From a virus: DNA of 37,200 nucleotides. The notes under the pieces were generated by a model. The model was not told where the DNA came from. It ran no database searches and was given only the letters and a program-made list of their open reading frames with translations. The stretch is taken from positions 1 through 37,200 of the IMG/VR virus record IMGVR_UViG_3300020450_000049; one strand, 5' to 3'. The position numbers and the translations under genes were made by a program. Position 1 is the first letter of the stretch. Each line of letters starts with the position of its first letter. Below are positions 1,939-21,600 of this stretch, in pieces.

Positions 1939-4156
1939 GGTTAGAGATAGTGAGGTTATTAACAGCACCAACACCTACCCAAGTGGTTCCATTATAAATT
2001 TCTAATTGAGTGCTTGTAGTATTAAAAATGAGAGCACCTGCACTTACAGTTAACGCATCTCTCTCAGTTGTCGTTATAACTGGTGGATAGAACTGATGAT
2101 ATGCGGTAACAATACCAGAAAAACATGCATTACCACTTGCTTTCATCGTGATGCCAACACCTGTGCCATCTTCATAATTATATCCAACATCGACTCCCGT
2201 TCTAGCAGTAACTAAACCAATGGAGTCTACATTTTTTACATTCTCTTTAAATATAGTTCCTGCAACAGAAATATCTCCATCAAACTTTGCGACAATTGTT
2301 GTATTAGCTAATCCTGTGGGACCAACATATAATGGGAACTCTTCTTGTGCAGTGGTGGTATTAATTCCAACATATTTGGTAGTGCTAATACCAACTGAAT
2401 TAGATGCCCATGTTCCACCTGCACCAGCAGTACCTCCAGCAGAAGGAGTGAATAATTGAAGATCTTTATCCCATGCTAAAACAAACCCATCAGTTTGAAT
2501 ACCAGCTCCAACATCAACATCCTCCATTCTAGCAAGGAAGACTTCACCACCTCCTCCTAAAACAGATAGTTGTTGCTGTATTCTATTAATGAATAATCGA
2601 TAATGTTCTGCTAACTTTTCATGAGTTACATAAGTTTGATCCAAAGGAGTTAATGGGTCAGAATTATCTACATTTGGAGGAATATTTAAAAGACCTTCTG
2701 TAAGAGTCTTCTCATCAAATTTTTCTAAAATTTCTTCTAACTTATCAACTTTTTTTGAAAGAGATTGACTTCTTTCTTCTAAATTATCAGTTACTCTTAT
2801 CTTTTCTACAAGATCTTTAAATTCTTTCTTTAAACTATCAATATGTTTTTCATTAACAGTAAAATCTATTTTCATTTCTTTCATTTGAGATGAAAGATTT
2901 TTTTCAAAATTAACTACGGCAGGAACCACCGCATTCTTCATTTCAGTGTAGTACTTAGAAGTACTAGTATCTAAATTCTCCTGCAACTCACAAATATTAT
3001 CTGTGAGACTCTCTTCCATTGTATTAATCTTCTCTCCAAAGTTAGAAAGAGCATTTTCATATTGAACTTCCTTTGCTTTGAAATCCTTAGAAAGATCATC
3101 ATAGGTTCTAGAAAGTTCCTTAGATTTACTAATTAGTTTTTCAATTGTATTAGTCTTTTCTAAAAGAACTTCATCAATTTCAATATCTTTATTATTAACT
3201 CTGTGTTGTAAATTAACAACATTCTTATTAATTTTAGAAACTTGTTCATCTAAATTTTTTGATATATCTTTAACTTCTTCTTCTGTCTTCAATTTAGAAT
3301 CTATGAGAAGTTTTTTATACTTCGGAATTTCTACATTAATAAATCCATCAAAATCTTCAGTAATTCCTTTAATTTTAGACTCATATTTTTCTTCTATTTC
3401 TTTTGCAGTTTCTTTAACTAATTTTTCATTTGCAGAAATCTTTGCTTCTGTTCTTACTTCTGTCTCTGCAAAAAACTTTTTATATTGTGGTAATATTTTT
3501 TCAAGAAGAGAATCTACCCTTCCTCCAATACCCTTAACTTCTTTTTTTACCTCAGAAAGATTTTCTTCATTAAGAGATTCAATATTCTCTGTAATAGAAT
3601 CTAGATTTAAATTAATTTGTTGTTGTATTCCTTCAACATGAGATGTTAAATCTTCTTTAAAATTTATAAAACGGTTATCAACTCTTGTTTCAGAATCTAC
3701 AATTAATTTTTTATATGATGGTACTTCTTCGTCTATAAAATCTGCAACGGTTTCTGATAAAGAAGAAAATTCTTCCTTTATATCTAAAATACTTTTAGAA
3801 TTTAAAGTTTTTACTTTATCTTGGATATTTCTAATAGACTCCTCAACGAAAAACAATTGAGCAGTCATGGCATCATCAAGATCTTCTTTACTAATAAGAT
3901 CCTCAATACCTTCTCTTATTTCTTCTACACTTTCAGTAAGAGTATCTACTTTTTGTACATTATTTTTAAAAGTATCAAAAGTTTGAGTAAATTCGTTAAG
4001 ATTTTGAATATGATCAAAATTTGTTTTAAAAGAATTAAATGCCTCTGAAATTGACTCTATTTTTTTAGGAGAAGCGACAGACAACTCTTCCCTAATTTCA
4101 TCCATAGATGAATTAGGATTCTTATCGTAAAATTCTGACGGTTTTTTAAGTGGCAC
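1934..4156 (-). CDS. Long coiled-coil, tail-fibre-like virion protein (740 aa)
   Basis: The start is a GTG. Residues 1 to about 500 are rich in Glu, Lys, Ile and Leu in heptad-like order and read as segmented coiled coil. A motif of the type P-x-YKKL-x-x-(D/E)-(S/T) recurs near residues 145, 222 and 277. After HEKLAEHYRLFINRIQQQLS (about 511-530) comes a Gly-rich hinge and a fibre-type segment (MEDVDVGAGIQTDGFVLAW). The C-terminal 50 residues contain ITTTERDAL and IYNGTTWVGVG, a common short module at the ends of phage fibre proteins. It sits just after gp16 with its own late promoter. A trimeric fibre or whisker on the neck or collar is plausible because T4 fibritin is also a long coiled coil, but I see no sequence similarity to fibritin. 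The exact structural role is unknown. Confidence 0.85.
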   Translation of the reverse strand: MPLKKPSEFYDKNPNSSMDEIREELSVASPKKIESISEAFNSFKTNFDHIQNLNEFTQTFDTFKNNVQKVDTLTESVEEIREGIEDLISKEDLDDAMTAQLFFVEESIRNIQDKVKTLNSKSILDIKEEFSSLSETVADFIDEEVPSYKKLIVDSETRVDNRFINFKEDLTSHVEGIQQQINLNLDSITENIESLNEENLSEVKKEVKGIGGRVDSLLEKILPQYKKFFAETEVRTEAKISANEKLVKETAKEIEEKYESKIKGITEDFDGFINVEIPKYKKLLIDSKLKTEEEVKDISKNLDEQVSKINKNVVNLQHRVNNKDIEIDEVLLEKTNTIEKLISKSKELSRTYDDLSKDFKAKEVQYENALSNFGEKINTMEESLTDNICELQENLDTSTSKYYTEMKNAVVPAVVNFEKNLSSQMKEMKIDFTVNEKHIDSLKKEFKDLVEKIRVTDNLEERSQSLSKKVDKLEEILEKFDEKTLTEGLLNIPPNVDNSDPLTPLDQTYVTHEKLAEHYRLFINRIQQQLSVLGGGGEVFLARMEDVDVGAGIQTDGFVLAWDKDLQLFTPSAGGTAGAGGTWASNSVGISTTKYVGINTTTAQEEFPLYVGPTGLANTTIVAKFDGDISVAGTIFKENVKNVDSIGLVTARTGVDVGYNYEDGTGVGITMKASGNACFSGIVTAYHQFYPPVITTTERDALTVSAGALIFNTTSTQLEIYNGTTWVGVGAVNNLTISNL

Positions 4157-4180
4157 TTATTTTGACCCCATCTATAATTA

Positions 4181-4188
4181 TATTTATT
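4181..4188 (-). promoter_or_regulatory. T4-type late promoter AATAAATA
   Basis: The minus strand reads AATAAATA in the junction between the gp16 stop (4189) and the GTG of the 740-aa gene (4156), 24 nt upstream of that start. Confidence 0.6.
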
Positions 4189-4644
4189 TCAACTCTTTTT
4201 GGGAGTTTCATTTTTAATCAGTTTAGCAAGATCCGCAGTAGATCCAACAAATAAAGCATTAGTTACATTAGTTGGTCCTTTACTTACTTGCTCTTCATTA
4301 ACATCTTTAAGTTTTTTCTGCAAATCTATTAATTTGTCAGTAGCATCAGAGACACTTTTTATAAGTTGTCCAGCAACTTCATATGCTCTCGGCATTTCAC
4401 TTTCTTGAGCAATTTCAAGAATACCATCAATTGCTTCTTGACCTTTTTCTATAATGCTATAAAGATTTCCTCTTGTATATTCATAGTCTCTGGTAATATC
4501 ATCCTTAGTTAATCTATCAGGTTTTTTTAAACCACCAGGCGTAACATCCGTAAGTTGATCTTTTTTAGGAGCACATCCGTTTTCAGGAGTGGTTGATACA
4601 TCATCAGGAGTGATATTAAAAGTTTTGTCTAATCTATTTGTCAT
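4189..4644 (-). CDS. gp16: Terminase small subunit gp16
   Basis: This 151-aa protein matches T4 gp16 (164 aa) in pattern along its length. A DYEYTRGNLY segment corresponds to T4 DYGVVRRNMH. A helical central region follows (EIAQESEMPRAYEVAGQLI, then KLIDLQKKLKDVNEEQV). The C-terminus has NVTNALFVGSTADLAKLI, resembling T4 NIQNATVFMGSPTELM. In T4 the small terminase forms rings and works with the large subunit gp17 to start DNA packaging. The ATG overlaps the gp15 stop by 4 nt (ATGA), so translation is probably coupled. gp17, which follows directly in T4, is not in this window; two structural genes come next instead. Confidence 0.9.
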   Translation of the reverse strand: MTNRLDKTFNITPDDVSTTPENGCAPKKDQLTDVTPGGLKKPDRLTKDDITRDYEYTRGNLYSIIEKGQEAIDGILEIAQESEMPRAYEVAGQLIKSVSDATDKLIDLQKKLKDVNEEQVSKGPTNVTNALFVGSTADLAKLIKNETPKKS

Positions 4645-5678
4645 GAAATAGTACCATCAAATCCAAAGTCATCACCATCCTCGATAAGAGCATTATCATC
4701 ATAAGTGACAGTTGTATCAGTAGCAGAAGTTATAGGATTGATTACTCTAACAGCAGATCCTTTAACATGAGAGGCAGCAAGGGTGTTGTCCTGTGCTCTT
4801 TCAACAATAATTGAATTTTCATTCACCATTGTTATCTTCATTTCCTCTTCATCAATATAACAGTAAGTTGCTTTTGCTGGTTCTGATGGATCTAAGAATA
4901 TATTGGATGTAGAAACAACTTTAATTTCGACCTCTGTAAGATCTACGTCTTCGTCTAGGGTGGTAGTTATAGGACCACCGTAACTCTTAGTTGCTCTTGG
5001 TGTAACTCTATATGTAAGATCTCTTTCTGTTCTTGTAGTGTCTGTACCCGCAAGATAACTAACTCTAACACTCTTAACAAGATCTCCAGTAGCAGTAGCA
5101 GAAGGACCGAAGAGATAAGTTTTTGCAGTAAATCTTAAAGTATAAAGAAGAACTCTTCTGGTTTCAAAATCTCCTTCATAATCATCTTGCATTGTAATAT
5201 TTTCTAATACAATGGGAATATCTCTTTTCTCTTTAATATTTTCTACTAATGTAACAGTAACATTATACGCTGGTTGAAAAAATGGTAATATTTGTTCTGT
5301 AATTTGAAGAGCATCATCATTCAACTTACACATAATAGCAAGTTCAAATTGCATATTATAAGGAACTGGCATATATGATTTCTTAGTTTCAGTTCCAGTG
5401 TCTGGATCTTTCACCGTAAACTGTTGAGTAGTAGTTACTTTTCTGGAAGGATCATATGTCAAACCTGTAAATTCAAAAGACATTCTAGGCAAAGTAATTG
5501 CCGTTGCTTTATTTAAATCTGGTGTTTGATTTAATCGTGCCAAAAATTTCTGAGTAGGACCATATCCCAAAGGAACTCTTACAACAGAACCATCTTGTTT
5601 GACAGTGATTCCGTTAAAAAGAGTACCAAAAGAAATAATGGTTCTTCTCAGAATTTCGTTATAAAAATACTCAAACAT
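4641..5678 (-). CDS. gp15: Tail completion / sheath stabiliser gp15 with C-terminal extension
   Basis: The N-terminus MFEYFYNEILRRTI resembles T4 gp15 (MFGYFYNSSFRRY). Other matching blocks are VRVPLGYGPTQKF, ITEQILPFFQPAYNVT, KRDIPIVLENI and the C-terminal core RRVLLYTLRFTAKTYLFGP. In T4, gp15 caps the tail end and joins tail to head. This protein has 345 residues against 272 in T4. The surplus is after about residue 200 and includes a small module (YCYIDEEEMKI, then IIVERAQDNTLAASH) that also occurs in the giant gp7-like and 2,515-aa proteins. It is preceded by a perfect TATAAATA late promoter and overlaps gp16 by 4 nt. Confidence 0.93.
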   Translation of the reverse strand: MFEYFYNEILRRTIISFGTLFNGITVKQDGSVVRVPLGYGPTQKFLARLNQTPDLNKATAITLPRMSFEFTGLTYDPSRKVTTTQQFTVKDPDTGTETKKSYMPVPYNMQFELAIMCKLNDDALQITEQILPFFQPAYNVTVTLVENIKEKRDIPIVLENITMQDDYEGDFETRRVLLYTLRFTAKTYLFGPSATATGDLVKSVRVSYLAGTDTTRTERDLTYRVTPRATKSYGGPITTTLDEDVDLTEVEIKVVSTSNIFLDPSEPAKATYCYIDEEEMKITMVNENSIIVERAQDNTLAASHVKGSAVRVINPITSATDTTVTYDDNALIEDGDDFGFDGTIS

Positions 5679-5699
5679 TTTTACACTACTATTATATTG

Positions 5700-5707
5700 T
5701 ATTTATA
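5700..5707 (-). promoter_or_regulatory. T4-type late promoter TATAAATA
   Basis: Perfect TATAAATA on the minus strand, 21 nt before the gp15 ATG. It contains the TAA stop of the Ycf35-like gene at 5703-5705. Confidence 0.8.
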
Positions 5708-6092
5708 CCCAACGAGTTACCGTTAATTCGATGGTATTATCTTCCATCTCCCATTCCTCTTCAACTTGGAATCCTTGGTTCTTAACAGTATTATGAATAG
5801 TCATTCTTGCATACTGTTGATTTACCTTATCCATAAATCTTTCTACTGGAAAAGGTTGATTCCATGTTTCAAGATCTGCTACTAATTCATACTCTCCAGT
5901 CATCGGATTCAATCTAAATCCAATATCATTAGCGATTGCGAGATCAGCAGTTACAGTTTCATGATTAATACCATGAGAACCAGTTACTCTTAGTTCTTGA
6001 TCTTCTACTACATTATATTGTAGAAGTTCTAATGCTTCTTGTAATTCAGGTTTATTCCTGATTTTCGTTTTTATTGTGCTGAAGTGAGACAT
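5703..6092 (-). CDS. ycf35: Ycf35 / DUF1257 family protein
   Basis: The 129-aa protein begins MSHFSTIKTKI, the family hallmark start, at an ATG at 6092. The same frame runs upstream to 6167, but that extension lies inside the preceding gene and is not Ycf35-like. Further family blocks are DIGFRLN with EYELVADLETW near 55-75, PFPVERFMDKVNQQYARMTI near 80-99, and GFQVEEEW followed by TVTRWV at the C-terminus. Ycf35 is conserved in cyanobacteria and some plastids and its function is not established to my knowledge. It overlaps the DUF2997 gene upstream by 41 nt, and the two families are neighbours in cyanobacteria as I recall. Here the pair is inserted between gp14 and gp15 under a late promoter, which suggests host origin and expression late in infection. 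It is full-length, with no sign of decay. Confidence 0.88.
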   Translation of the reverse strand: MSHFSTIKTKIRNKPELQEALELLQYNVVEDQELRVTGSHGINHETVTADLAIANDIGFRLNPMTGEYELVADLETWNQPFPVERFMDKVNQQYARMTIHNTVKNQGFQVEEEWEMEDNTIELTVTRWV

Positions 6093-6273
6093 GTTCGTTA
6101 ACGATAGCAGGTTGATAAAATTCAGGTTTAAAGGATCTTGTTTGTAACACCCCAAGTTTGTTTTCAATAGATTCTGTTAAATTCAGACACTGTTGAGATG
6201 CAGCACCAATAACCTCTTCAATTACTGTGCCATCTTGTTTAATACTAAATTTAATTGTTTGTTGTTCTGGCAT
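6052..6273 (-). CDS. DUF2997 family protein
   Basis: From the ATG at 6273 the protein has 73 residues. It starts MPEQQTIKFSIKQDGTV, followed by IEEVIGAASQQC and LTESIENKLG. This matches my memory of DUF2997: a short beta-beta-helix protein with F-x-I-x-x-D-G-x-V-x-E and a conserved Cys before a helix. A TTG at 6288 would add five residues, but the ATG fits the family better. It overlaps the Ycf35-like gene by 41 nt in another frame, which suggests coupled translation. In cyanobacteria this small family is associated with Ycf35; the molecular role is unknown. A late promoter lies 35 nt upstream. Confidence 0.82.
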   Translation of the reverse strand: MPEQQTIKFSIKQDGTVIEEVIGAASQQCLNLTESIENKLGVLQTRSFKPEFYQPAIVNEHVSLQHNKNENQE

Positions 6274-6308
6274 TATCACAAAATACAATAATTATATTAT
6301 AGCACAAA

Positions 6309-6316
6309 TATTTATG
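6309..6316 (-). promoter_or_regulatory. T4-type late promoter CATAAATA
   Basis: The minus strand reads CATAAATA, containing the gp14 TAA stop (6312-6314) and lying 35 nt before the DUF2997 ATG. It would let the host-type gene pair be transcribed as a late unit. Confidence 0.65.
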
Positions 6317-7781
6317 GAGTACCAAATGGGTTCTGTTCAGTAAAGTCTAAAATAGCATCTGCTTGATTTTCTATTTCTAAATTATCAGCGAATCCATCAT
6401 CAGTAGGTTCTAGATCAATTATTCTAATAGTATGACTTGCTCCTGATGTTTGACCTACCAATTTCTCTCCTCTTGTCCAGTCTCCACTTACGGATGCTAA
6501 TTCTATTACATTTGTAGTGCCATTCCATACTCTCACTCTTGCAGTTGTTCCACTGGTTTCTCCAGTAACAACTTCATTAAATTTGTAATTTCCACTGTTA
6601 TCGAGAGAAGGATCAGCGATAGTTAGAGTTGGAGCAGTGCTATATCCAAGACCAGCATTGGTTATATTAATAGCAGTGATAGTTCCAGCAGAACTTACCA
6701 CAGCAGTTGCAGCAGCAGAAACGGTAGTAACACCTGTCTTAAATATTTCATTACTAAATGTGATTGTTGGGTTAGTAGTATATCCAACACCACCAACATA
6801 TCCGTTAGAACTTGTAAGAGTTACTATACCAATAACATTATCACCGATGACTGATGTAGCAGCAGCACCACTTCCACCACCACCAATAAAGGCGATCTTA
6901 GGAGCAACTGTATATCCAGAGCCAACATTCTCTAAATCTACGTGCTGAACAGATCTAGTAGCAGGGTTAACATTATCAGTACATGCCACAATTCCTCCTA
7001 TCAACCTTACAGTAGCAATACCCGTTACACCACCAGAAGGAGCAGATGATATTGCAACAGTTGGTTGTCCAAGATATCCACCACCACGATTAGTGATATC
7101 AATAAATCTAATACCACCAGAGGTTACAATACCTGTTATGGCAGTAGCAGTAACTCCCGTTCCGACAAGTGTAAGTGTTTGAGTAGGACCAATGAGAGTA
7201 GAGATGCTACCATCTTCACCAGTTACACCATCATAATCTTCTCCTATTAGAGAATCGTCAATCTCTTCAATACCAGTATCAATAACTTCATCCTCATAAC
7301 GAAATAGTTCGCATTTAAGAGTATAGACATAAGTTTTTAATAATTGATAAAAAGGTTTTTCATGCTCTACAAATTTTATTTCAAATAACCTATCACCTAG
7401 TGGAAAATATATCAGATCTCCTTCCTTAGGTCTTGTTGCTAATTTGATATTATCTTCATTTTTCATCAAAGGTTCAATATAAGTCTCCCATCTCTCCTTA
7501 GAAATTGTAAGAGTTATTTCATTAGTTTGTTCTATACCAAACTTAGATAATAAAACTGGATTATCTCCGTACCCATCAAAAGTATCAAGATATGCCTCTA
7601 ATGGATAAGCATCATCAAACTTGGATGCCACAACCTCTTTAATGACCGTTTTTTCACTTAAATATTTTCTAGGCATATAATGCACTTCAACACCATACAT
7701 TCTCAACTGCTCGTTGATTAAATCTTGAACTAAATTCTGCTCAGATCTAGCACCTTGTTGAAAAAATGGATTAAGTGCCAT
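6312..7781 (-). CDS. gp14: Neck protein gp14 with a large insertion of repeat modules
   Basis: The N-terminal 180 residues (MALNPFFQQG, NLVQDLINEQLRMYGVEV, GDLIYFPLGDRLFEIKFVE, KPFYQLLKTYVYTLKCELF) fit the T4-like gp14 head-completion/neck protein, and the position directly after gp13 agrees. The protein has 489 residues against 256 for T4 gp14. The extra part, about residues 195-450, contains four copies of a G-x-GY-x-x-x-P repeat (GGGYLGQPTV, GSGYTVAPKI, GVGYTTNPTI, GLGYSTAPTL) and then a duplicated GE-x-x-x-G-x-TSG unit (VVTGETSGTTARV, KLVGQTSGASHTI). The C-terminus DDGFADNLEIENQADAILDF returns to neck-protein character. gp14 closes the head portal together with gp13 in T4. The insertion presumably makes a decoration that projects from the neck (inference). 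Confidence 0.88.
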   Translation of the reverse strand: MALNPFFQQGARSEQNLVQDLINEQLRMYGVEVHYMPRKYLSEKTVIKEVVASKFDDAYPLEAYLDTFDGYGDNPVLLSKFGIEQTNEITLTISKERWETYIEPLMKNEDNIKLATRPKEGDLIYFPLGDRLFEIKFVEHEKPFYQLLKTYVYTLKCELFRYEDEVIDTGIEEIDDSLIGEDYDGVTGEDGSISTLIGPTQTLTLVGTGVTATAITGIVTSGGIRFIDITNRGGGYLGQPTVAISSAPSGGVTGIATVRLIGGIVACTDNVNPATRSVQHVDLENVGSGYTVAPKIAFIGGGGSGAAATSVIGDNVIGIVTLTSSNGYVGGVGYTTNPTITFSNEIFKTGVTTVSAAATAVVSSAGTITAINITNAGLGYSTAPTLTIADPSLDNSGNYKFNEVVTGETSGTTARVRVWNGTTNVIELASVSGDWTRGEKLVGQTSGASHTIRIIDLEPTDDGFADNLEIENQADAILDFTEQNPFGTP

Positions 7782-7785
7782 GATC

Positions 7786-8631
7786 TTAACCTATCATATC
7801 TAGAGGAGGTAATTCATAAGTGTTGGACATTATTTCTCTAATTCTAGTTAATTCTTTTTCGGCATCATCATAAATTTGTCTTCCATTTAATTCAGTTCCA
7901 CCAGGAAGTTTTACTCCCGCAAACTTAATTAAATTTTGCCCCCATTGCCTTTTAATTAATGCGACAGTATATGGTTTTAAAAAAGAATCATTCCATACTC
8001 TGGTAAAATCATCAGGATTCATAGCTCTAAAACAATCAATAATTAAATAATCACCTTTAGTCATAGAATCCCACTCAATATCAATATATAACCTATCTTG
8101 TCTTTGATTAAATCTTATCTGTTTTTCTGTTGTTAAAAGGAAATTAATATCTTCAAGATATGTCTTTGTCATCGCATAGGTTAACAGTTCAGTTGCTCCC
8201 CAATAATAAATGTCATTTAGAAATAACTGATATTTAACACTAAACATATTATTAGTAATAGTATTAGATCCATCAAAATGGAATATCTTTGTTATTCCAA
8301 TAATATCACTAGGAATTGCTAGATAGTTACTGTTTTCTTCATAATCAAATTGGACAGAAGTCCCTGCAATATCAGCAGTAGCACTGGTTGTTGTTAATCC
8401 AACCACTCCCTCTTCTCCTGGTCCTTTTCCTCTATCAATATCTTCTTGCGTTACTTTATACTTCATGTATGTTTGAGCAACACCATCAAAATGTCTCTCT
8501 TGGAAATACTGAATAGCGTCATCTACAATATCTTCTATTTGCTCGTCAGCAACATTAATCTCCAATACAGGAGCACCTAATTGCCTTTTGCAATAATCGA
8601 TAAATTCAGTTCTACTAGATGGTCTTCCCAT
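7786..8631 (-). CDS. gp13: Neck protein gp13
   Basis: The 281-residue protein begins MGRPSSRTEFIDYCKRQLG and continues with EINVADEQIEDIVDDAIQYF, the typical gp13 neck-protein opening in T4-like phages. T4 gp13 has 309 residues. Later conserved-looking blocks include NDIYYWGATELLTYAMTKTY, RQDRLYIDIEWD, and KRQWGQNLIKFAGVKLPGG near the C-terminus. In T4, gp13 and gp14 complete the head after DNA packaging and form the tail attachment site. The stop is 4 nt before the gp14 ATG. An AAAGGAT ribosome binding site lies upstream of the start, and a CATAAATA late promoter is 20 nt upstream. No insertion is visible here, unlike in gp14 and gp15. Confidence 0.92.
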   Translation of the reverse strand: MGRPSSRTEFIDYCKRQLGAPVLEINVADEQIEDIVDDAIQYFQERHFDGVAQTYMKYKVTQEDIDRGKGPGEEGVVGLTTTSATADIAGTSVQFDYEENSNYLAIPSDIIGITKIFHFDGSNTITNNMFSVKYQLFLNDIYYWGATELLTYAMTKTYLEDINFLLTTEKQIRFNQRQDRLYIDIEWDSMTKGDYLIIDCFRAMNPDDFTRVWNDSFLKPYTVALIKRQWGQNLIKFAGVKLPGGTELNGRQIYDDAEKELTRIREIMSNTYELPPLDMIG

Positions 8632-8651
8632 TATACAATTATCCTTTTAGG

Positions 8652-8659
8652 TATTTATG
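8652..8659 (-). promoter_or_regulatory. T4-type late promoter CATAAATA
   Basis: The minus strand reads CATAAATA and includes the TAA stop (8655-8657) of the 215-aa gene. It is 20 nt before the gp13 ATG. Confidence 0.65.
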
Positions 8660-9302
8660 ATGGTGCAGATGCAATGCCAGCAAATACGAGTATATTGCCG
8701 TTGACCATATTATAAATGGTAGTCCCTTGTCCTACCCTTGTAATGGTAACTCCTGTTCCTGGTAATATTTCTAATGGTGATGTATGTGCTGCTCCAATTT
8801 GAATTTTATTTGCCACAGTGGTTGCTATTCCTACAATCGCAACAGTGGTAATCGCAGATCCAACAGAAACCGTATCACCAATTGCTACACCATCAAGTTT
8901 ATTAATTGTAAACTCAGTAGTGCCAATACCAGCAGTAGCACCAACAGCAATCGAAGTATTTAAAATTGTTGTTGTTTCCAATGATGGAGTTAGTAATACG
9001 TTATATTCATACCTTCCAGCAGCAAGACTTCTTGTTTGCGTTGATCCTAATGAAATAAAGAATTGCCCATCATAAGCACTACTAAATCCCACCGTAAATG
9101 TAGCAGCAGGAATATCCGTAGCACCTATACCTGCACTTTTTTGCATTTGTGCTGAACCACTCCAACCTGTCAAATCATAATTTTCATTTGAGGTGTCATC
9201 TACATTAAAAGTATTTTTAAAATTAGCTCCACCATAAATCACCAAATCCGCAGCGTTTGGTACTCCTGATTCGGGATCGAATGTAAAATTCTTAGTGGAC
9301 AT
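8655..9302 (-). CDS. Beta-rich virion structural protein (215 aa)
   Basis: This protein is rich in Thr, Gly, Ala and Ile and has no coiled coil or membrane segment. The first 105 residues (NFTFDPESGVPNAADLVIYG, FKNTF, NYDLTGWSGSAQMQKS, GQFFISLGSTQTRSL, GRYEYNVLL) resemble the small beta-sandwich found in several phage tail proteins, in which an N-terminal FTF-x-x-G is followed by DLTG-x-x-x-x-x-x-QM. Residues 110-205 are a low-complexity module (GIGTTEFTINKLDGVAIGD, VSVGSAITTVAIVG, AHTSPLEILPGTGVTITRVG) of a type common in marine T4-like structural proteins. It starts 11 nt inside the 75-aa gene and precedes gp13. A baseplate-periphery or neck-ornament role is likely but unproven. Confidence 0.75.
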   Translation of the reverse strand: MSTKNFTFDPESGVPNAADLVIYGGANFKNTFNVDDTSNENYDLTGWSGSAQMQKSAGIGATDIPAATFTVGFSSAYDGQFFISLGSTQTRSLAAGRYEYNVLLTPSLETTTILNTSIAVGATAGIGTTEFTINKLDGVAIGDTVSVGSAITTVAIVGIATTVANKIQIGAAHTSPLEILPGTGVTITRVGQGTTIYNMVNGNILVFAGIASAPS

Positions 9303-9519
9303 TTGAAACTAACTCCTTGAGTAAAGATTTGATCTCATTCATTTCACTTTTTAAATTAGCAAGATCTTGTTCAATATTGTTTGTTTTTTCAGATTCTCTT
9401 TTTTTAGCATCACGTCGTGCGATGTATTTTTGATAATCTGAATGATTAACATTCACTATTGATTTGGATTTAGCGTCTCTTAATAGATCCGCATGACCAG
9501 TGACTCCATGATATTCCAT
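9292..9519 (-). CDS. Small coiled-coil protein (75 aa)
   Basis: The N-terminus MEYHGVTGHADLLRDAKSKS is followed by HSDYQKYIARRDAKKR and a C-terminal heptad stretch (IEQDLANLKSEMNEIKSLLK) that should form a short coiled coil. I recall similar small proteins at this place in other cyanophages, without a known function. Its ATG overlaps the stop codon of the 2,515-aa gene by 1 nt (TAATG), and its end overlaps the next gene by 11 nt, so all three are probably translated in series. It may be a chaperone or adaptor for the neighbouring large structural protein; that is only inference from the tight linkage. Confidence 0.75.
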   Translation of the reverse strand: MEYHGVTGHADLLRDAKSKSIVNVNHSDYQKYIARRDAKKRESEKTNNIEQDLANLKSEMNEIKSLLKELVSNVH

Positions 9520-12500
9520 TATGCTAATGCCATCACTCTCAAGTCTCTAACTCTAGGAACAAAAACTTGATTCGTAGATGTTAAAAGCAATTTAATTCTA
9601 TAAGTTTTGAATGCAGGTAGTTCATCCACACTGAAGGTGTATTCTCTGTAATCTAATTCATCACTTTCAAATCCAGAGATATTAGACTTAGTAATTAATT
9701 TATCAGGCAACCCACTATTATCTGCTTGTGAAATAACTTCACCTTTAGCATTTAGATTAGTATATCCTGGAAATGGAGTAAAGATTGGATCAAATCCTTT
9801 TTTATTATTGATAGAATATAAAGCACGTATATCAGCGTCAATATCAATATGAGCAGATAATAAAATCTTTAAAGATGTTGCTGAATTTTCCAATACCATT
9901 TCTCTCGAAATGTACTGACAAGCAGTAGGATCTTCTTCTACGGTATTAATTCTACTATCAGTTGCATAATTTGTAATAGGTTTATTAACTCTATTAGAAG
10001 TCAAGATAACATTTTTTCTTTGACTATCAATTACAGGACTAACCAATGAGTTTGTTGTATTTAAAAGCACTGTCATATTTAATGATTTATTACCTTCAAT
10101 ATTAGTCAAGAAAGTGTCTTCATTAATCTTAGAAGCAATGATTCTAGGACTACTCAAATAATTGGTGGTGTTTAATGTAATATCCTCTACGTCTGTCTGA
10201 ATGTAAGGAATTTCATTTCCATCAATACTCTTAGACGTAATAGTGGTTACATTAGCAGTCAATGAGGTAGTAGGAACTGTCACATTTTGAATCATTGGAG
10301 TAATAGCTTCAAATGGCATATTTTGTGTTGCTCTTACTCTATTTCCACCAGCAGATTTAGTAGAATTAATATACAACGCAGGATTTCCTACATCTGTATT
10401 TCTACTAGTACCACCCTTAGACATATCTAATTTAACAGTATAAGAATCATATGTTATTGAATCTGATACATTTAGGTTTGTAGCATTTGGATGTGCTGAT
10501 GTAGAAGTGGATAAACCATGAGTTGTATTAACACGTAGTAAGTTAATTCCTCCTAATTCATACTTACTGACAGGAGTTCCCACTGCATAATTTTTAGATT
10601 TATTAGAAGTATTATCAATACCTCTACTACTTACACCAATCAAATTACCATTAACAGAAGTGTAAGATATAATCTCCTCCCCAATTTTTAAGTACCCATA
10701 ATTAGTTGTTCCAACTCCAACATTCTCAAATGTGGAGAAATTAGATGCATCCTGAAGTGAGATTGATCCTGTATCTCCTGTATTATATGCAGCAGTTAAT
10801 TGTGTTGGTTTAACATCAGATTGTACTTCACTAATTTTTACATTATTTTTAGTAAAATACATTCCATGATTTTTATGATTTACTTTAAAATGCAAACCAT
10901 CATTTATCACATTAATGGATCCAACCTGAACATCTCCACCAACTCCTGAATTCAATTCAGAAGATATACCTGAACTATTGTTATAGAATATCGTATTTGC
11001 AGATCCAACTACAAAATTACCTTGAACATTTTCTAATATAAGTTCAGTGGTTTGTCCAATTGATACCACTGAGAATCGAGCGTTTCTTCCAATTGAGTTA
11101 AGTCCAACAGTTGTAATTCCTAAAACATCACCCACTTGATATCCTGTTCCCACTCCACTAATGGTTGCCGCTATTGCAACTCCATCAGATATTGATATAT
11201 CAGCAGTCGCTCCACGACCATTACCAGTAATAGTGTCTAATACCACACCACCAAAAGTAAATCCACCAGATATAGGAGTATATCCAATACCAGCATTAAT
11301 AATATTAAGAGCACCAGTTGCAGTTCCAGCAGATCCAACTAAACTACCTGTGGCATTAGTTCCTGTTTGGAAGAATGTGTTTCCTACAACATATCCAGTA
11401 TCACTCAATGTAGTTCCTAATCCTACTCTTATACTTCTAGAAGTAAGTGAAAGTGGATTAGATTGTAAAACTGGAATTTGGTTGTTTGTTTCCGACAACT
11501 CTGGATTGTAAAGACTTAATGAACCAGAGTCAACAAAATCTGCTCTATAAAGAGTGTATTTAAGATCTTCCCACTGACTTGGTTCCCATGTAGAGGCATT
11601 TTGAGATTTAAATAAACTTCCTAATGTTGGTTGGTTAGCAATATAAGTATTGTCTATTAAATCATTTTCACCAACTCTTGAAATAAAAACACTATACTTA
11701 GCAGAATTAGAAAGCATTACTAATGAATATTCTAAACCTCCCTCTAAGTAAATAGGTGCTTTAAATTCAAAAGTAGTAGCAATAGAACCATCAGCAGATG
11801 TGCTAACTTCTGATGGATCGAGTGCAACTTCACTTAATGGAAGAATTATTTCCGTGGGGACTCCATTAGTCATCGTTCTGAGACTTAATATAACAGGAAG
11901 ATCAGAGTCATCTTTGGTTGCAAAGAAAACATCTACCTTAGTTACAAAAACACCCTCTTCATCTTCAACTCTGAAAGATTGTGCTAATGGATCACCATTA
12001 TTTCTCCATCTCCAACGTGTAGTTGATCTAACATTTCCTGTGTTTTGCCACTCAGTACCAACAACTCTACCAGATGAAGATGACTGACTAATATTCTGTG
12101 TTATGACTCTTGCATTTCTTACTGCAACAATTGTTTCTTGAACCGTATTAAGGAATCCTTGTGAGGTAAAATTATCAACAGCAGTAGATGTTGCTTCTTG
12201 ATTAATATCATTTTGAGGATCACTAGTCAATTTAAATTGTTTTGTACCAGCAGTAAATCGAGGCAATCCTGAACTATTTGGATTAGGAATGTTGAAATTA
12301 CCACCAATAAATCCTGTTACATCTGAAATAAGTCTTACTTGAGTAATAGTAGCCTGAGCACCACTAGATTCTCCCGTAAGAATCATATCTGCCTTAGCAC
12401 ACCCACGATAAAGAGATGATGTGACATTTGCTAATGAGGCAGTATCAATATTCAATACAGTAGAAGTAGATGAATAAGTTACAGGGACAACCTGAGATAT

Positions 12501-15500
12501 GTTATATGGATTTGATCCATATATTTTTGTTGGAGCATTATATGGACCTTCTTTATGATTAGATTGTGCTACCCTAAAAGCAATCTGTTGATCTCTTCCA
12601 GTTGGTCCTAATCCTGCCTGAGATAATCTACCACTAACCCTCTCTCCTATTTGGAAAGTGCCTGAGGTCATGGTTATTTCTAATAATTTTGGAGTGCAAT
12701 AAGTAGTTACATCCTGACCATCAAAGAAAGCATATAAACGAGTATTAGGTTTATTTTGTTTTGATATGAACTGAACATCACGAGATCTCATAAATGGTAT
12801 TAGATCTCTACTTATTGTCCTATCTCCTTGGGATTCTCTCTGACTGAAATCCTCAATTATTCGTCTTTGAGTACCAGACCTACTACTTATAACAGTCTCT
12901 TCAACTCTTACTTCTCTCTGCTCAACATGTTCTCGTACTCTAAAATCACCCTCAGTTCTAGTACGATGTACATGTCTACGAGCACCAGTTACAGCACCAG
13001 TTAGCGTTCTTCTTCCTGTCCAGAAGTCAGACCAAGATCCCCATATCTGTGGTCCTAATCCAGTTTGAGCATCAAAACCCTCACTAGCAGCAAGATCTGC
13101 TACCGTGGATGCAAAATCACCTTCTCTATTAACAACACGAGCATCGATTCTAACAGTATCAACCCATGTATCAGATTCGGGAGTTAAATCAAGAACTCCG
13201 TTCCAATAAGCAACAATAAACGGAGTTACAGATTCTGTTCTTGATCCAAATGGTTGCTTAGAATATTCTTGTTCTGAATAATCCAGAGTAATAATATCAT
13301 TATTTTTTCTAATGTTGATACCAGTAATAGTGCTGAAATCTACATCAGCAGTATCATCAACATTAACTACAGGACCAAATTGTAAATCTACTGAGTTAGT
13401 ATAATGTTTTGGTCTTAATTCATTATTTAAAGGATCGATGCTATTTTTAATTTTAAATTTAGTTTCCTGAGCGTTAAAAGTTTCAAAATTATCAACAAAG
13501 AATCCAGACTTAAATCGATTTAATCCATCATTATCAGGAACAAAGAAATTAGCAGTATTAGTTTCCAATAAAGAAAGACTGGTATAAAATTCTAAATTTC
13601 TAATTCTCGTTTCAAGTTTATTAATATCAGTCATTCTATATCTCTTATAATCTAAGAAATTAATAGAAGCTTGCGAAACATCATATAAGTATGCTGGTAA
13701 ATTAATAATAGCAACTTCTAATGCCTCATCTATTTCATTTGGTAATTGAGGATCTTCTGTTGGTGTTCCATATACAACTTGGAATTTTCCATCTTTTGTT
13801 AAAAATACTCTATCAATTCTCCCAAGATAGAAAGAAAAATCAATAACAATAGACTCATCTGATGCTAGTATATTAGATGCAGTTTGTCCTGCTTGATTGA
13901 AGGTTCTTCCAGCAAATGTTAAAGGAGAACTAGCACCTTCACTTACAGTATAATCAGATACTCGTGGTCGAATATCAATCATGTCTGAATTAGCAAGTCC
14001 GTTAACTTCTTGTATTTCAGTGGAATAATCAAAAGTATTATAAGAATTTACAGTAGTAATATCTCCATCATCCGTAGAATCATAAAAAGCACTTTCAAAA
14101 TATATCTTTATCTGTTTAGCAGGGGCATCAACATCAGGTTTTCTAGTTATAGATCCATAGTTGTAGAAAGTATTTTCTTGACCATTATTAAAAGTAAATT
14201 CATCAGAAATATTAAAACTGGTATCGTTTAACGCACCAACAATACCTTGAATCGATGATTCTTGGAATACTACAGTTTCTCCCTCACTAAAAGTAAAGTC
14301 ATTTTGATAAATGAAGGTAATTGTATCTGCATCATTTTTTTCAGCAACAATAGCAATTGCATTGCTACTTTGCCCTATTAACTGCTCTCCTATGATTAAC
14401 TCAGTAGTTGTTGTGGAGGAACTGTTCAATGAAACTAAATCCATTGATGGTGCGGAAGCAGTTCCTGCGACAGTAGAAGATTCAAAGATTCCATGCATAT
14501 CAATTATATCAGGAACATTTAAGGAGATTACTTCATCTTCCACTCTTGTTCCAAAAGGATAATTACCAAATGTTAAACCATTATTAAGAGTAGTGGTTCC
14601 GATACCTGATCCTTCAAATTTAGATTTATCTACAATAATTGAATTAACTCTTTTCTTAATCTTATTTTTTGCTGTTGGTTTAATTTTCTTTAAAGTGGTT
14701 ACAACAGACACATTTCCGCTATCTGTTGCTGTGCTTAGATTAAGAATATCAAGAGTGGTCATTCCACTATTAAACACTAGTCTATCTGCTGTTAATTCTT
14801 CTGTGGTTCCATCTGATCTGAATACTGCATACCTCTCAGGATCAAAAGGAAGGAATGTTTCATTCTCACCAGCACTTAAAGTATTCGCTATTCTGCTATT
14901 GGCAATAGTTTGACTATCATAAACTTTTCTTATAGAAATAGAGGCATCAGTTAAATCTACATTTGAAACATCATGCTTAGGTAGTTCTGTATAAAGAGTA
15001 ACTTCATCTGATGATTCAAAATCAGTAGATACAATTTTTAAATCAGATACTTCAAGAACACTTGTAGGTAATGTCCCATTTACTACTCCGCTTACACTAG
15101 AAACTTCAGTGACAGTAATCGTATCAGTACCAACACTAGTGACTCTTGCCATGATAGGATCCCTATCAGAAGAAGCAATATCACTAAACTCAACCAAATC
15201 ATTAATTCTGACTAATTCACCAGTTCCTGGAAATAGTGGATTAGTGCTTCTAATTGTACTAATCGTACCAGCACCAGAGGCAGGTGATATAGTTGCTACG
15301 CCCACATTAAACTTAGTGGTTTGAATTACATCAGCACAGAAAGTATTAATACCAACTACACCATTATTAGTTCCCCATAATGATTTTACGTTAGATATAC
15401 CAAACTCTGTAACTGCTACTGCAACTCTTCCATTAGAAATACCATTAAATATAAGTGCTTCATTTTTAATAAAATTACCTGAGGTTTCAGTAACTGTCAA

Positions 15501-17066
15501 AGCAAGACCTGAGGACACCGCATATCTTAAAAATCCAGTCGCACCACTATTGTTACCTTTAACAAAAGTTCCAGCCTCAAAAGTGCCATTATTACCATCT
15601 TTACTTGTAGGAGGTTGATTTATATGAATTTCAGTAAAAGTTTGAATATCATATAAAGATATATCCCATTCATTTAAATTAGCATTAGATGTGCTATATG
15701 ATCCAGTTTCTAACGCAAAATCATATACTCTTGCTTGACCTATTTCTTTTCCTGGTAAATTAGCAGCACCAGGTTGAGTAGTATTTGTTCTTTGATCTCT
15801 TAAACTTATTACAAAAGTATTTCCAATACCAATTGTAGGTGATCCATATACTCTATTAAGTTTTAAAGCAGGACCAGTTTTATATTCTATTGCTTGATCT
15901 TCTAATGTTGCCGTGGTTCTTGGTTTTGGTACATCCAAAAATGTAGGTGATGTAGTTTCTATTTCATAACCACGAACATATGCTTTTCCTCTGGAAAGAC
16001 GATATAATGCTAAATTATCAGATACAGTATCTCCACCATAAGTTAATTGACCTTCTTGAAATATTCCATTATTACCAATATTATTGTTTAAAGAATTTAC
16101 AACCGAAACATCAAATGGTGTTACATAATAATCTCCTGATTCTTCAAAAGTTCTACGAGCAAGTTCATCTGCAAAAGTAGCATATTCTGTGGTTTGCTTT
16201 TTGGATCTTAAAACACCATCTTCAATTCTGGCAAGTTCTACAAATGTATCATCTAAAGAATCATCTAATGATTTTTTAAATAGATTGAGAGATATTTTTA
16301 ATCTATCAGCACCAGGTGCAGAATAATTATTAAACCCTTGCGAGTTATCATTTAAAGTTTCGTCAAGATCTGCTGTAATTACTTCTTCTAAAATATTAAA
16401 TCCAATCTTATAACTTGGAGTAGTTCCATACTGATCTAAAATAAGTGTTTCAGCATCAACATTAAGGAATTGACCTCTAACAAAATAGACTCCATTTTCT
16501 ACATGAAAAGCAGAACCTGTTGCAGCTGCCCCGTTTGCCACAGTAGATGCAAATGGACTACCAACAGATATAGTCTCATTTCCAAGAAGTCCTGAAGTAA
16601 TAATAACACTACATGTTAGTTCTTCAGCGTCAGAGAATGTTGATGTGGAATTATTAGAAGTATTAGATCCAAGATAATTTACATATAAGGTAAGATTACC
16701 ATTCTCAGAATCTCCTGAGGATAAGATTTTATTAACGTTTGCAGTTACCCCAGAAGTTTGTCCTGTAATTGTAGTTCCAAGTAATTGATCTGCATAAGCC
16801 GCAACAGGAACACCTTGGAATTCATTATTTAATTGAATACACGTATACTGTGAAGTATAACTTGTATTTCCAGGTATTACCTTAGTTCCTTCTTTAAAAA
16901 AATGTTGACCAAATTTTTCAACTTGGTTCTGCAACATTGATTGCAGTCCAGTTAATTCTCGTGCTTGTACTGGATATCCAGGTTTAAATAATACCCGATA
17001 ATAATCATTAGCAGGATCATAATCATCAAAATATGGTGATACGTTTAAATTAGTTAGCTGCGGCAT
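9519..17066 (-). CDS. Giant baseplate/tail-fibre structural protein, DUF4815 type (2,515 aa)
   Basis: The N-terminus (LNVSPYFDDYDPANDYYRVL, FKPGYPVQARELTGLQSMLQ, NQVEKFGQHFFKEGT) fits DUF4815. Residues about 495-560 and 882-940 hold GE-x-x-x-G-x-SG repeats. DUF4815-like core blocks follow near 1179-1302 (GFFVDNFETF, AYWNGVLDL, PESDTWVDT). A strongly charged, Arg-rich stretch lies at about 1351-1432. A beta-domain near 1700-1806 has FVTKVDVFFATKDDSDLPV and PIYLEGGLEYSLVML. GY repeats are near 1919-2009 and a LKIGEEIISYT module near 2108-2166. The C-terminus has YISREMVLENSATSLKILLS and ends FVPRVRDLRVMALA. It occupies the place where T4 has gp9 to gp12, directly after gp8 (6-nt gap). A role in attaching fibres at the baseplate rim is likely by position and family, but not proven. 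Confidence 0.85.
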   Translation of the reverse strand: MPQLTNLNVSPYFDDYDPANDYYRVLFKPGYPVQARELTGLQSMLQNQVEKFGQHFFKEGTKVIPGNTSYTSQYTCIQLNNEFQGVPVAAYADQLLGTTITGQTSGVTANVNKILSSGDSENGNLTLYVNYLGSNTSNNSTSTFSDAEELTCSVIITSGLLGNETISVGSPFASTVANGAAATGSAFHVENGVYFVRGQFLNVDAETLILDQYGTTPSYKIGFNILEEVITADLDETLNDNSQGFNNYSAPGADRLKISLNLFKKSLDDSLDDTFVELARIEDGVLRSKKQTTEYATFADELARRTFEESGDYYVTPFDVSVVNSLNNNIGNNGIFQEGQLTYGGDTVSDNLALYRLSRGKAYVRGYEIETTSPTFLDVPKPRTTATLEDQAIEYKTGPALKLNRVYGSPTIGIGNTFVISLRDQRTNTTQPGAANLPGKEIGQARVYDFALETGSYSTSNANLNEWDISLYDIQTFTEIHINQPPTSKDGNNGTFEAGTFVKGNNSGATGFLRYAVSSGLALTVTETSGNFIKNEALIFNGISNGRVAVAVTEFGISNVKSLWGTNNGVVGINTFCADVIQTTKFNVGVATISPASGAGTISTIRSTNPLFPGTGELVRINDLVEFSDIASSDRDPIMARVTSVGTDTITVTEVSSVSGVVNGTLPTSVLEVSDLKIVSTDFESSDEVTLYTELPKHDVSNVDLTDASISIRKVYDSQTIANSRIANTLSAGENETFLPFDPERYAVFRSDGTTEELTADRLVFNSGMTTLDILNLSTATDSGNVSVVTTLKKIKPTAKNKIKKRVNSIIVDKSKFEGSGIGTTTLNNGLTFGNYPFGTRVEDEVISLNVPDIIDMHGIFESSTVAGTASAPSMDLVSLNSSSTTTTELIIGEQLIGQSSNAIAIVAEKNDADTITFIYQNDFTFSEGETVVFQESSIQGIVGALNDTSFNISDEFTFNNGQENTFYNYGSITRKPDVDAPAKQIKIYFESAFYDSTDDGDITTVNSYNTFDYSTEIQEVNGLANSDMIDIRPRVSDYTVSEGASSPLTFAGRTFNQAGQTASNILASDESIVIDFSFYLGRIDRVFLTKDGKFQVVYGTPTEDPQLPNEIDEALEVAIINLPAYLYDVSQASINFLDYKRYRMTDINKLETRIRNLEFYTSLSLLETNTANFFVPDNDGLNRFKSGFFVDNFETFNAQETKFKIKNSIDPLNNELRPKHYTNSVDLQFGPVVNVDDTADVDFSTITGINIRKNNDIITLDYSEQEYSKQPFGSRTESVTPFIVAYWNGVLDLTPESDTWVDTVRIDARVVNREGDFASTVADLAASEGFDAQTGLGPQIWGSWSDFWTGRRTLTGAVTGARRHVHRTRTEGDFRVREHVEQREVRVEETVISSRSGTQRRIIEDFSQRESQGDRTISRDLIPFMRSRDVQFISKQNKPNTRLYAFFDGQDVTTYCTPKLLEITMTSGTFQIGERVSGRLSQAGLGPTGRDQQIAFRVAQSNHKEGPYNAPTKIYGSNPYNISQVVPVTYSSTSTVLNIDTASLANVTSSLYRGCAKADMILTGESSGAQATITQVRLISDVTGFIGGNFNIPNPNSSGLPRFTAGTKQFKLTSDPQNDINQEATSTAVDNFTSQGFLNTVQETIVAVRNARVITQNISQSSSSGRVVGTEWQNTGNVRSTTRWRWRNNGDPLAQSFRVEDEEGVFVTKVDVFFATKDDSDLPVILSLRTMTNGVPTEIILPLSEVALDPSEVSTSADGSIATTFEFKAPIYLEGGLEYSLVMLSNSAKYSVFISRVGENDLIDNTYIANQPTLGSLFKSQNASTWEPSQWEDLKYTLYRADFVDSGSLSLYNPELSETNNQIPVLQSNPLSLTSRSIRVGLGTTLSDTGYVVGNTFFQTGTNATGSLVGSAGTATGALNIINAGIGYTPISGGFTFGGVVLDTITGNGRGATADISISDGVAIAATISGVGTGYQVGDVLGITTVGLNSIGRNARFSVVSIGQTTELILENVQGNFVVGSANTIFYNNSSGISSELNSGVGGDVQVGSINVINDGLHFKVNHKNHGMYFTKNNVKISEVQSDVKPTQLTAAYNTGDTGSISLQDASNFSTFENVGVGTTNYGYLKIGEEIISYTSVNGNLIGVSSRGIDNTSNKSKNYAVGTPVSKYELGGINLLRVNTTHGLSTSTSAHPNATNLNVSDSITYDSYTVKLDMSKGGTSRNTDVGNPALYINSTKSAGGNRVRATQNMPFEAITPMIQNVTVPTTSLTANVTTITSKSIDGNEIPYIQTDVEDITLNTTNYLSSPRIIASKINEDTFLTNIEGNKSLNMTVLLNTTNSLVSPVIDSQRKNVILTSNRVNKPITNYATDSRINTVEEDPTACQYISREMVLENSATSLKILLSAHIDIDADIRALYSINNKKGFDPIFTPFPGYTNLNAKGEVISQADNSGLPDKLITKSNISGFESDELDYREYTFSVDELPAFKTYRIKLLLTSTNQVFVPRVRDLRVMALA

Positions 17067-18667: not shown

Positions 18668-21600
18668 CTAAATTCGTTTATAGTTCTTAAATTTAAGAGG
18701 AGCACTTCTTTCTATGATAGTAGAAGTAGTAATTCCAACAACACCACCTTCAGTGAATGCTGTATAAGAATTTAATCCCGATCTCGATGATAGGTCAATT
18801 CTTCCCCAACTATAAGTTCCATAAGAGTTAGATGTCTCAATTCCAGTTCCACCCCATGAGAAATCACTTGTTATTGTTGCAAATACTCTCGCACAATGAG
18901 TAGTTCCTATTCCTACTCCTTCACTGTTAATACCAGAAGTAGTATTAACAATTTCAAAACTAGCAACTGAGTATACATTATCTATAAATGATTTTCCTAC
19001 TCCAATGGTATTTCCACCAGAATCCACTGATGTAATTGAAGTAGTGGCATCTCCTACATGAGAACCAGTAACAACAAATATATCATTGGTTCCAATTCCA
19101 CTCATTGTAATAGCAGTGCCTGTTAAACCAGATAATCTTAGGAAAGAATCCTCTGGAATAAACAGATCAAATATCATTTGATCCTTAGAAGCGATTGTTG
19201 TAGTACCAAATCCAACAATGATTCCTTGATCTCCATTATATGTGCTAACTGTATTTTCCTCTTCAACATGAGTAGGAGGACTAATAAGAACAGAGGGAAC
19301 ATTAGTATGCGTATATCCTACACCAGCACTTGTAATGGCAACACCTGTTACAGTTCCAGCCGCACCGATTATTACAGATCCAAATGCCTGTGTAGTAGTA
19401 CCAATACCTGTGGTAGATCCAAAACTAACTGTGGCAGTGGTATAACCAACTCCACCATCAGTAATATCAACAGAAGAAATAGTTCCTGCTATTGATACTA
19501 TCGCAGTTCCAGCAGCACCAGTTTTTACTGCTTGATTATGGAATTTAATTTTCTTCTGGAATCCAAGATCAGTGCTATCCTCTCTTTCATTAAAAGTATT
19601 GAATAGAGGTCTTAATGAATCAACGTAAATTGCTGTTGATCCAATTCCAACAGATTTAGTGATATATGTATATGGAGCAATTTGAGGTTCATACAATTCT
19701 CTATCTTTACCGATTGGTTTTTCATTTATAATCTTATCCTCAGTTTGTCTGCACCATACAACAGGTCTTTGAAGATTTTCATCAGTAGTATTGCCAGGAC
19801 CATAATATGGATTAGTGCTTACTATATCAGTAGAATTAACACTAAGAACAATTCTTTCATTTTCTTGTAGATAAGACTCCTGAGGAGAATTACTCTCAAT
19901 AGTTAAATCATCACCTTTCTTAACTGTCTCAATAATCTCTCTGTTAATAACATCAGAATCACCACTTCCTTTATAGAAAATTACTCTAGATTTATCACCT
20001 ACTTTTGGTGCTTCTGTAAAGGTAACTACACTACCACCATCAAATGTATAACCCTTACCAGGAACTTGTAATATGTCATTAATGAATATTAAAAGAATAT
20101 CTTGAACATTAATCTCAGATCCTTTACCAGCTCTAATGGAAATTAAATCTCCATTATCTGTTAATTGGAATGCTTTTGTTGAACCATTAAAATCAGAATC
20201 AAAATTATCAAGAGATTGAAGAATACCTAATGACCATCCTGTAAACTCATCACTAAATGTTTCCTCAACATTAATCAGGAATTCTTTATATCCTGTTGAT
20301 GTTGGAATACCAGTTGTTCCTCCAATAGCAACTGTTAATGATTGACCATTCCCATATCCATAACCAGTATCTTGAACTGTAAAGTTAACAACACTAGATC
20401 CTTGACCAACAACAATATCAATTGTTGCACCAGTTCCAACTCCAACATTTCCAGAAGCATATTGTAGTGGTAAGTTTGAATATGAAAGTGGATCATCAAA
20501 AACAACATCAAATGGTTTATGTACTGTTCCACCTCTAGCATAGAAATGAGCAAGAGTTGAAATCCCAGTGTTTACAAGGAAAGTATCATTATCAATTATT
20601 TGCAATACAGTGCTCTTACTTGCTGCAGCAGGATCAATTTTGGTAGGAGAATTATTGACTCTTCTAGGAGCAACAATAGCACCCTGAACTGTTCCCAATC
20701 CAACATAGAATGTTGGAACTGTAGATGTTCCAACTTGTGCTTCAAACTCAGTGGTGCTATTAACTGATATAACTGATGCACCACCAAAGAATGGATCACC
20801 TCTGGACGCATCAGTTGCAGACACTGATCTAGGATAAGTATGAATAGTTGCACCATTATCAATTTGACATGTAAACGCTAATCCTGTAAAGATAACAACA
20901 CTTGTTTTTCCGCTAGTATTATACCCATGAGGTGTATTTGTTGTAACTGTGAGAATACCAGTTACGTTGTTATAAGCAGCAGTGTTTATTCCTAATGGAG
21001 GTGCATAATCACATGTAAATGCTATTCCTGATAAACTTACTTCATCACCAACGGATAATCCATGAGCAGTTGATACTGATACAATTGTAACTCCAGTTGT
21101 TGAAGTATAACCAACATCAGAAATTGATTTTGGTTTGTAAAATACTTGTGTGTTTGTAACAGCAGTTCCCGTTACATGTCCATTTTCAATGGTTGCTATT
21201 CCAACTGGTGTTAAAGTAACTCCATTAAGATTTTCCTCTTTAATGGATATATTAACAGTTGTTTGAATTCCAGATCTATAACCTGATCCTGTGTTGCCAA
21301 CACTAATTGCTGAGACTATTCCAGTATTACCTATTATCGCAGTTCCTCCTGCGGCAACAAGTGGTTGATATCCAAATCCCTCACTAGATCCCACGGAAAC
21401 AATTATTCCACCAAGAGGAAGATTTGAACCATTTGGATCAGATGTTACTGAGGTAGCAGTCCCTGTGAAATTAATTGAAGAAATTCCAGAAGTTTCGGAA
21501 ATTGTATATTGTTCTACACTTCCATTTCCTTGGAAAATATCATTAACTAAGATAACAGTATCTGTTTGTATTCCTGTAACATTTACCCCATCAGATTTTA

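Follow-up and report, generated by a model that had tools for sequence, protein, structure and literature searches.

Among the closest described counterparts of the gene pair reported here is the cyanobacterial cluster DUF2997-ycf35-fed7 (PMC4284462), an operon type of cyanobacteria and plastids represented in Synechocystis by ssl1263-ycf35-sll0662, in which Ycf35 is the DUF1257 protein. The ferredoxin Fed7 contributes to tolerance of oxidative stress, metals and iron limitation and has a DnaJ-like protein as a binding partner; fed7 is induced by iron starvation and is required for tolerance (PMC4284462). Ycf35 is up in iron and copper deductions (PMC8141849), and ycf35, ssl1263 and fed7 are SigD-dependent under standard conditions, as is ycf35 in high light (PMC8875361). 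In red algal plastids, the loss of ycf35 and that of ycf46 both track freshwater habitat (PMC5940233). Our literature search found no experimental function for Ycf35 or DUF2997, and no paper joining ycf35 and cyanophage.

Two features of T4-type phages provide the second point of comparison. The PeSL cassette of these phages reportedly consists of an early promoter plus a stem-loop terminator. Mobile promoter cassettes have been described in the group (Arbiol 2010 and Comeau 2014, as cited in PMC4503421), and the cyanomyovirus g15–g18 hyperplastic region carries host-derived genes within the structural block (Millard et al. 2009, as relayed in PMC2984593).

A DUF2997–DUF1257 pair between neck genes

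The window, i.e. the whole stretch of 37,200 nucleotides that was analysed (IMG/VR record IMGVR_UViG_3300020450_000049), has T4-type homologues in the order gp13-gp14-gp15-gp16, which identifies it as a T4-like cyanomyovirus. The pair sits between gp14 and gp15, with all four genes on the same strand:

6312..7781, (-) strand: gp14, neck / head closure Hc2, flanking (PHROG 460, E 8.5e-124; Pfam T4_neck-protein, E 1.4e-28)
6052..6273, (-) strand: DUF2997 gene, 73 aa (PHROG 23133; Pfam PF11211, full profile)
5703..6092, (-) strand: DUF1257/Ycf35 gene, 129 aa (PHROG 20456; Pfam PF06868, full profile)
4641..5678, (-) strand: gp15, tail sheath stabiliser, flanking (Pfam PF16724, E 1.5e-84; PHROG 227)

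The first-pass annotation had read the inserted genes as full-length, overlapping members of these two families, and Pfam scores far above the cut-offs bear this out: the 5703–6092 product matches PF06868 with 86.8 bits (cut-off 22.2; E 1.3e-24; profile 1–103/103), and the 6052–6273 product matches PF11211 with 52.4 bits (cut-off 24.1; E 4.9e-14; profile 1–47/47). They share 41 nt (6052–6092). The corresponding PHROGs, 20456 (E 1.1e-40) and 23133 (E 9.5e-22), are both listed as of unknown function. The pair is also present in cyanobacteria, where host operons hold both families in the same gene order, and the proposed relation to the cyanobacterial and plastid pair is therefore upheld.

Across 67 phage and host sequences, the invariant residues of DUF1257 are Met1, Ser2, His3 and Phe4 (the N-terminal MSHF, also found in the window protein), Gly58, Tyr94 and Gly107; in DUF2997, they are Cys29, Asp14 and Gly15 (55 phage and host sequences). 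The AlphaFold2 model of DUF1257 has a pLDDT of 87 and a pTM of 0.79, and that of DUF2997 is weak (pLDDT 72). Neither model had a Foldseek match in the PDB at E ≤ 0.001, searching PDB sequences with the two family profiles gave nothing significant, and BFVD yielded one good match, to an entry without a name (A0A7S5REL3, E 3.7e-7).

Elsewhere in the window, gp14 itself has a long C-terminal extension, in which residues 254–431 match virion, fibre and baseplate PHROGs (e.g. 701, 19630 and 708), and there are two very long open reading frames, at 18668–31636 (4322 aa) and 9519–17066 (2515 aa).

Distribution and genome slots

DUF1257 was found in 15 of 50,697 phage records, and DUF2997 in the same 15, all of them Prochlorococcus phages or marine single-cell virus records; one scan of IMG/VR found relatives encoded in 435 stretches. 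We compared 93 viral loci, comprising the window, 12 phage-record loci and the best 80 of the 435 IMG/VR stretches. Some are near-duplicates (e.g. L001 and L002), such that the counts below are of loci rather than of independent events. DUF2997 lies directly before DUF1257 in 93/93 loci, with an overlap of 14–80 nt in all but L044, and the two genes were never seen apart in phage loci.

The position of the pair, by contrast, varies: 39 copies lie before gp43 (DNA polymerase), 15 in talC/sugar-nucleotide metabolic regions, 14 after gp41/mazG, 6 between gp16 and gp17 (L025–L027, L030, L031 and L048) and 1 beside hli/psbA, and 5 carry no slot label; the 13 between gp14 and gp15 overestimate the share of that slot, as the sample consists of the loci most similar to the window. 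The slot labels, assigned coarsely and by hand, need 12 changes on the tree. P-SSM2 and P-SSM7 have the same pair (T4-GC 174-175; cluster names as in the records), from the same clade as that of the window, but before gp43 or beside hli/psbA rather than at gp14|gp15, and annotated only as hypothetical; in P-SSM7, it adjoins hli, psbA and a ferredoxin gene. The six gp16|gp17 copies fall inside the g15–g18 hyperplastic region (in L026, the order is gp15, gp16, pair, gp17, then one more large gene), whereas the window insertion lies one gene outside it.

Two small genes recur in the neighbourhood. A 78-aa gene of PHROG 29737 (unknown function) lies near the pair in L006 (2030–2266), L011, L027 and L084; from reading its sequence, we take it to be NifU C-terminal-like. 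In several phages (L004 4542–4835 and relatives), the gene immediately preceding the pair encodes 97 aa starting MPKEVKYVPVVEPK; a Pfam and PHROG search with it gave no match.

Origin and selection

The DUF1257 tree (78 proteins) has few columns and several long phage branches; in it, the phage copies form one group (support 100/99), and so do, each separately, the picocyanobacteria, the remaining cyanobacteria and a second paralogue found in hosts. A split with support 98/86 separates phage and picocyanobacteria from the other cyanobacteria and the second paralogue; rooting on the latter therefore places the phage copies beside picocyanobacteria. The gene overlap points the same way: among hosts, only picocyanobacterial operons have it. 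To judge from the tree and the overlap, a single capture from a picocyanobacterial operon most likely gave rise to the phage pair, which has since been inherited among phages. Host copies were reached through psbA loci, and a contig scan with phage-derived patterns matched no host copy.

The label 'host-type' in the first-pass annotation thus holds for family membership but not for the lineage itself, which is a separate, old phage clade, 38–50% identical to most host copies. The RG[YF] motif (RGY) occurs in 72/74 host DUF1257 proteins and 0/93 from phage; where the host has RGY, there is His-x(1-4)-His[EPV] in 92/93 phage and 0/74 host proteins. Because this motif is absent and the phage clade separate, the window DUF1257 is treated, on its sequence, as a family member and not as an orthologue of host Ycf35. 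Purifying selection acts on the pair in the lineage of the window, with strong constraint on the DUF1257 protein (dN/dS 0.04–0.14, and about 0.13–0.29 for DUF2997). Host-derived by phylogeny, variable in presence and site, and selected, the pair is a candidate auxiliary metabolic gene of cyanophages.

Two further records concern the families more widely. In RCC307 (L327 4015–4371), a divergent 113-aa DUF1257 copy lies inside a longer ORF region with no DUF2997 nearby. For an open frame of 557 aa around one DUF2997 match (G047), the idea of a fusion was discarded, as the contig is of high GC and no supporting domain was seen.

The gp14–gp15 junction and its promoters

Three promoter-like elements border the pair; the published late-promoter consensus, for reference, is NATAAATA (PMC2984593):

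6309..6316, (-) strand: late-promoter octamer CATAAATA, which shares bases with the stop codon of gp14; ancestrally the promoter of gp15, it now precedes the pair
5700..5707, (-) strand: octamer TATAAATA, the second late promoter, which shares bases with the stop codon of ycf35 and precedes gp15
6296..6325, (-) strand: sigma70-like promoter TTGGTA-18-TATAAT with TG before the -10 (extended -10), 10/12 matches, upstream of DUF2997

A survey of 80 gp15-anchored contigs found 72 without an insert, 2 with the pair and 6 without gp14. The spacing between gp14 and gp15 is 22–53 nt in all 72 pair-free junctions, confirming that the two genes are otherwise adjacent. At the stop codon of gp14, each of the 72 also has a late-promoter motif, nearly always C[A/C]TAAATA (L251 reads CATAAACATAAATA), from which it follows that CATAAATA at 6309–6316 is the ancestral promoter of gp15. 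The pair had been credited with its own late promoter: the motif upstream is real, but it belongs to the junction and overlaps the end of gp14. At the other border, a late octamer lies on the ycf35 stop codon in 13/13 gp14|gp15, 6/6 gp16|gp17 and 13/14 gp41/mazG copies, in 6/15 metabolic-region copies and in 0/39 pre-gp43 copies.

Both borders of the window pair thus bear promoter motifs, in which respect it resembles the gene shuffling by mobile PeSL promoter cassettes of T4; it differs in that the promoters are late rather than early and in that it has no minus-strand stem-loop terminator (no terminator-like site was found on that strand within 4100–9600). A sister lineage (L062, L063 and L072) also has the pair at gp14|gp15, but its gp14 stop no longer carries the late motif. 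Placing the two gp14|gp15 lineages in one clade was not rejected (p-AU 0.305), which fits one or two insertions. The single-cell virus AG-345-O18, with gp14 86% and gp15 89% identical to those of the window over the parts compared, has an empty junction (L331), and its pair is found among metabolic genes on a different contig (L006), though several viruses may have been present in the cell. Both AG-345-E15 and P-SSM2 have the pair before gp43 and none before gp15.

Sigma70-like sites occur across the region at chance level (25 found, 26.2 expected); a single site proves nothing, and the weight of the promoter evidence therefore lies on position and recurrence. The best upstream site reaches at least 10/12 in 22/92 loci, many of them near relatives and hence fewer independent cases, compared with 2.9% of mononucleotide-shuffled sequences and 2/71 empty junctions. 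Seven loci have a perfect TTGACA-17-TATAAT, the lineage that lost the late motif keeps TTGGCA-17-TATAAT, and promoters as good as or better than that of the window precede the pair in other lineages and slots. Purely late expression, as first annotated, is not supported. Since a sigma70-like promoter and the gp14-embedded late promoter both precede the pair, we infer early or middle expression from the former, with late transcription from the latter also possible in the window.

Host operon, Fed7 and AAA+ neighbours

The main host operon that we recovered encodes a HEAT-repeat protein, DUF2997, DUF1257, a [4Fe-4S] ferredoxin (Fer4) and an aldo-keto reductase, in agreement with the published cluster (PMC4284462). 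Its marine picocyanobacterial form shares with the phage pair the overlap as well as the gene order, but the phage pair has none of the neighbours Fed7, HEAT and aldo-keto reductase, and the phage loci examined showed no adjacent Fed7 gene.

The second host paralogue has different company, adjoining an AAA+ ATPase in 14/17 loci; in L313, it is accompanied by DUF2997, an Hsp70-like protein and, as a sub-threshold match, a GrpE-like protein. Pseudomonas phage SM1 encodes the same type of AAA+ protein as the cyanobacteria (41% identity over 284 aa), together with DUF1257 (just over the cut-off) and DUF2997, all within 4 kb (L336 1–3653). We take this AAA+ type to be Ycf46. No ferredoxin was seen beside the second paralogue or the SM1 pair. 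These clusters, like the window, bring both families together, but the window has no AAA+ gene adjoining its pair and its DUF1257 is of a different clade. A search of P-SSM2 with the Ycf46-type ATPase query gave no match, whereas all eight picocyanobacterial genomes searched encode a full-length relative; the pair could therefore only work through a host AAA+ protein. Weak DUF1257 matches were also seen in related Pseudomonas phage records, and Microcoleus phage My-WqHQDG (L337 3001–3354) encodes a DUF1257-like protein at 21.6 bits (cut-off 22.2).

Discussion

The tree and the gene contexts show one phage clade of DUF2997–DUF1257 pairs occupying several genome slots, and these comparisons give good support to its description as a module that is mobile, selected and related to picocyanobacteria. 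We put at roughly 0.55 the probability that the pair is a mobile auxiliary module of marine T4-like cyanophages that modulates the host via Ycf46 and/or the Fed7 redox branch. The pair would have been captured from a picocyanobacterial operon, kept among phages and moved to several slots, perhaps by recombination at late promoters, a route suggested by the two border motifs in the window. The two proteins would form a complex acting in the host cell rather than in the virion. Because related pairs adjoin Ycf46-type AAA+ genes and the host copy shares an operon with Fed7, the phage pair is probably an adaptor or regulator on one or both of these, and photosynthetic electron and iron/redox metabolism would be held in a state favourable to phage replication. 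We infer host physiology to be the best reading of the target. The AAA+ link is drawn from a different paralogue, the main pair of Prochlorococcus being located away from ycf46, and the phage pair, in which the RGY motif of the host is missing, may have acquired a different partner. A bolder version, which we regard as speculative, is that the pair is a dedicated adaptor capturing host Ycf46 and redirecting it by means of the phage-specific His-x(1-4)-His loop; DUF1257, DUF2997 and a Ycf46-type AAA+ protein would then be the three parts of one machine common to cyanobacteria, plastids and phages unrelated to each other.

The pair could instead be a redox/iron auxiliary gene only, serving the Fed7 ferredoxin-thioredoxin-glutaredoxin branch in tolerance of oxidative stress and iron limitation, with no AAA+ partner. 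The host operon with its iron-responsive fed7, the response of Ycf35 to iron and copper, the shared SigD dependence, the P-SSM7 neighbourhood and the NifU_C-like gene that several phages have close to the pair are all consistent with this; the lack of Fed7 beside the phage pairs, and the AAA+ rather than ferredoxin neighbours of the second paralogue and the SM1 pair, make it a tentative reading that we consider possible but do not favour.

Adaptation to virion assembly, also raised in the first-pass annotation, would make the pair a neck/tail chaperone produced late with gp14 and gp15. Its position, the late octamer upstream, the gp16|gp17 copies and those after gp41/mazG before a possible late gene would suit such a role, yet only 13/93 copies lie at gp14|gp15, the 39 before gp43 have no late motif at the ycf35 stop, the 72 pair-free junctions mean that neck assembly does not require the pair at this site and the L062 lineage has lost the upstream late motif, all of which render it very unlikely. 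Nor is it probable that the pair is selected mainly as a promoter carrier for gene shuffling, its product being dispensable: the late motif on the ycf35 stop and the precedent of mobile promoter cassettes speak for such a passenger, but the strong constraint on the DUF1257 protein, the constant association of the two genes and the pre-gp43 copies without the motif speak against it.

The observation is sound, and the mechanism of host modulation is a testable proposal. Ycf35, encoded by plastids and cyanobacteria, now also belongs to a two-gene module that is mobile and under selection and occurs in hundreds of contigs from marine viruses, and insertion of such a cassette into a structural block essential to a lytic phage can leave a late promoter before the gene behind it. 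The AAA+ neighbour of related pairs provides a concrete lead on the role of the pair: with DUF1257 and DUF2997 linked to a Ycf46-type ATPase in hosts and in an unrelated phage, the role of Ycf35 becomes testable.
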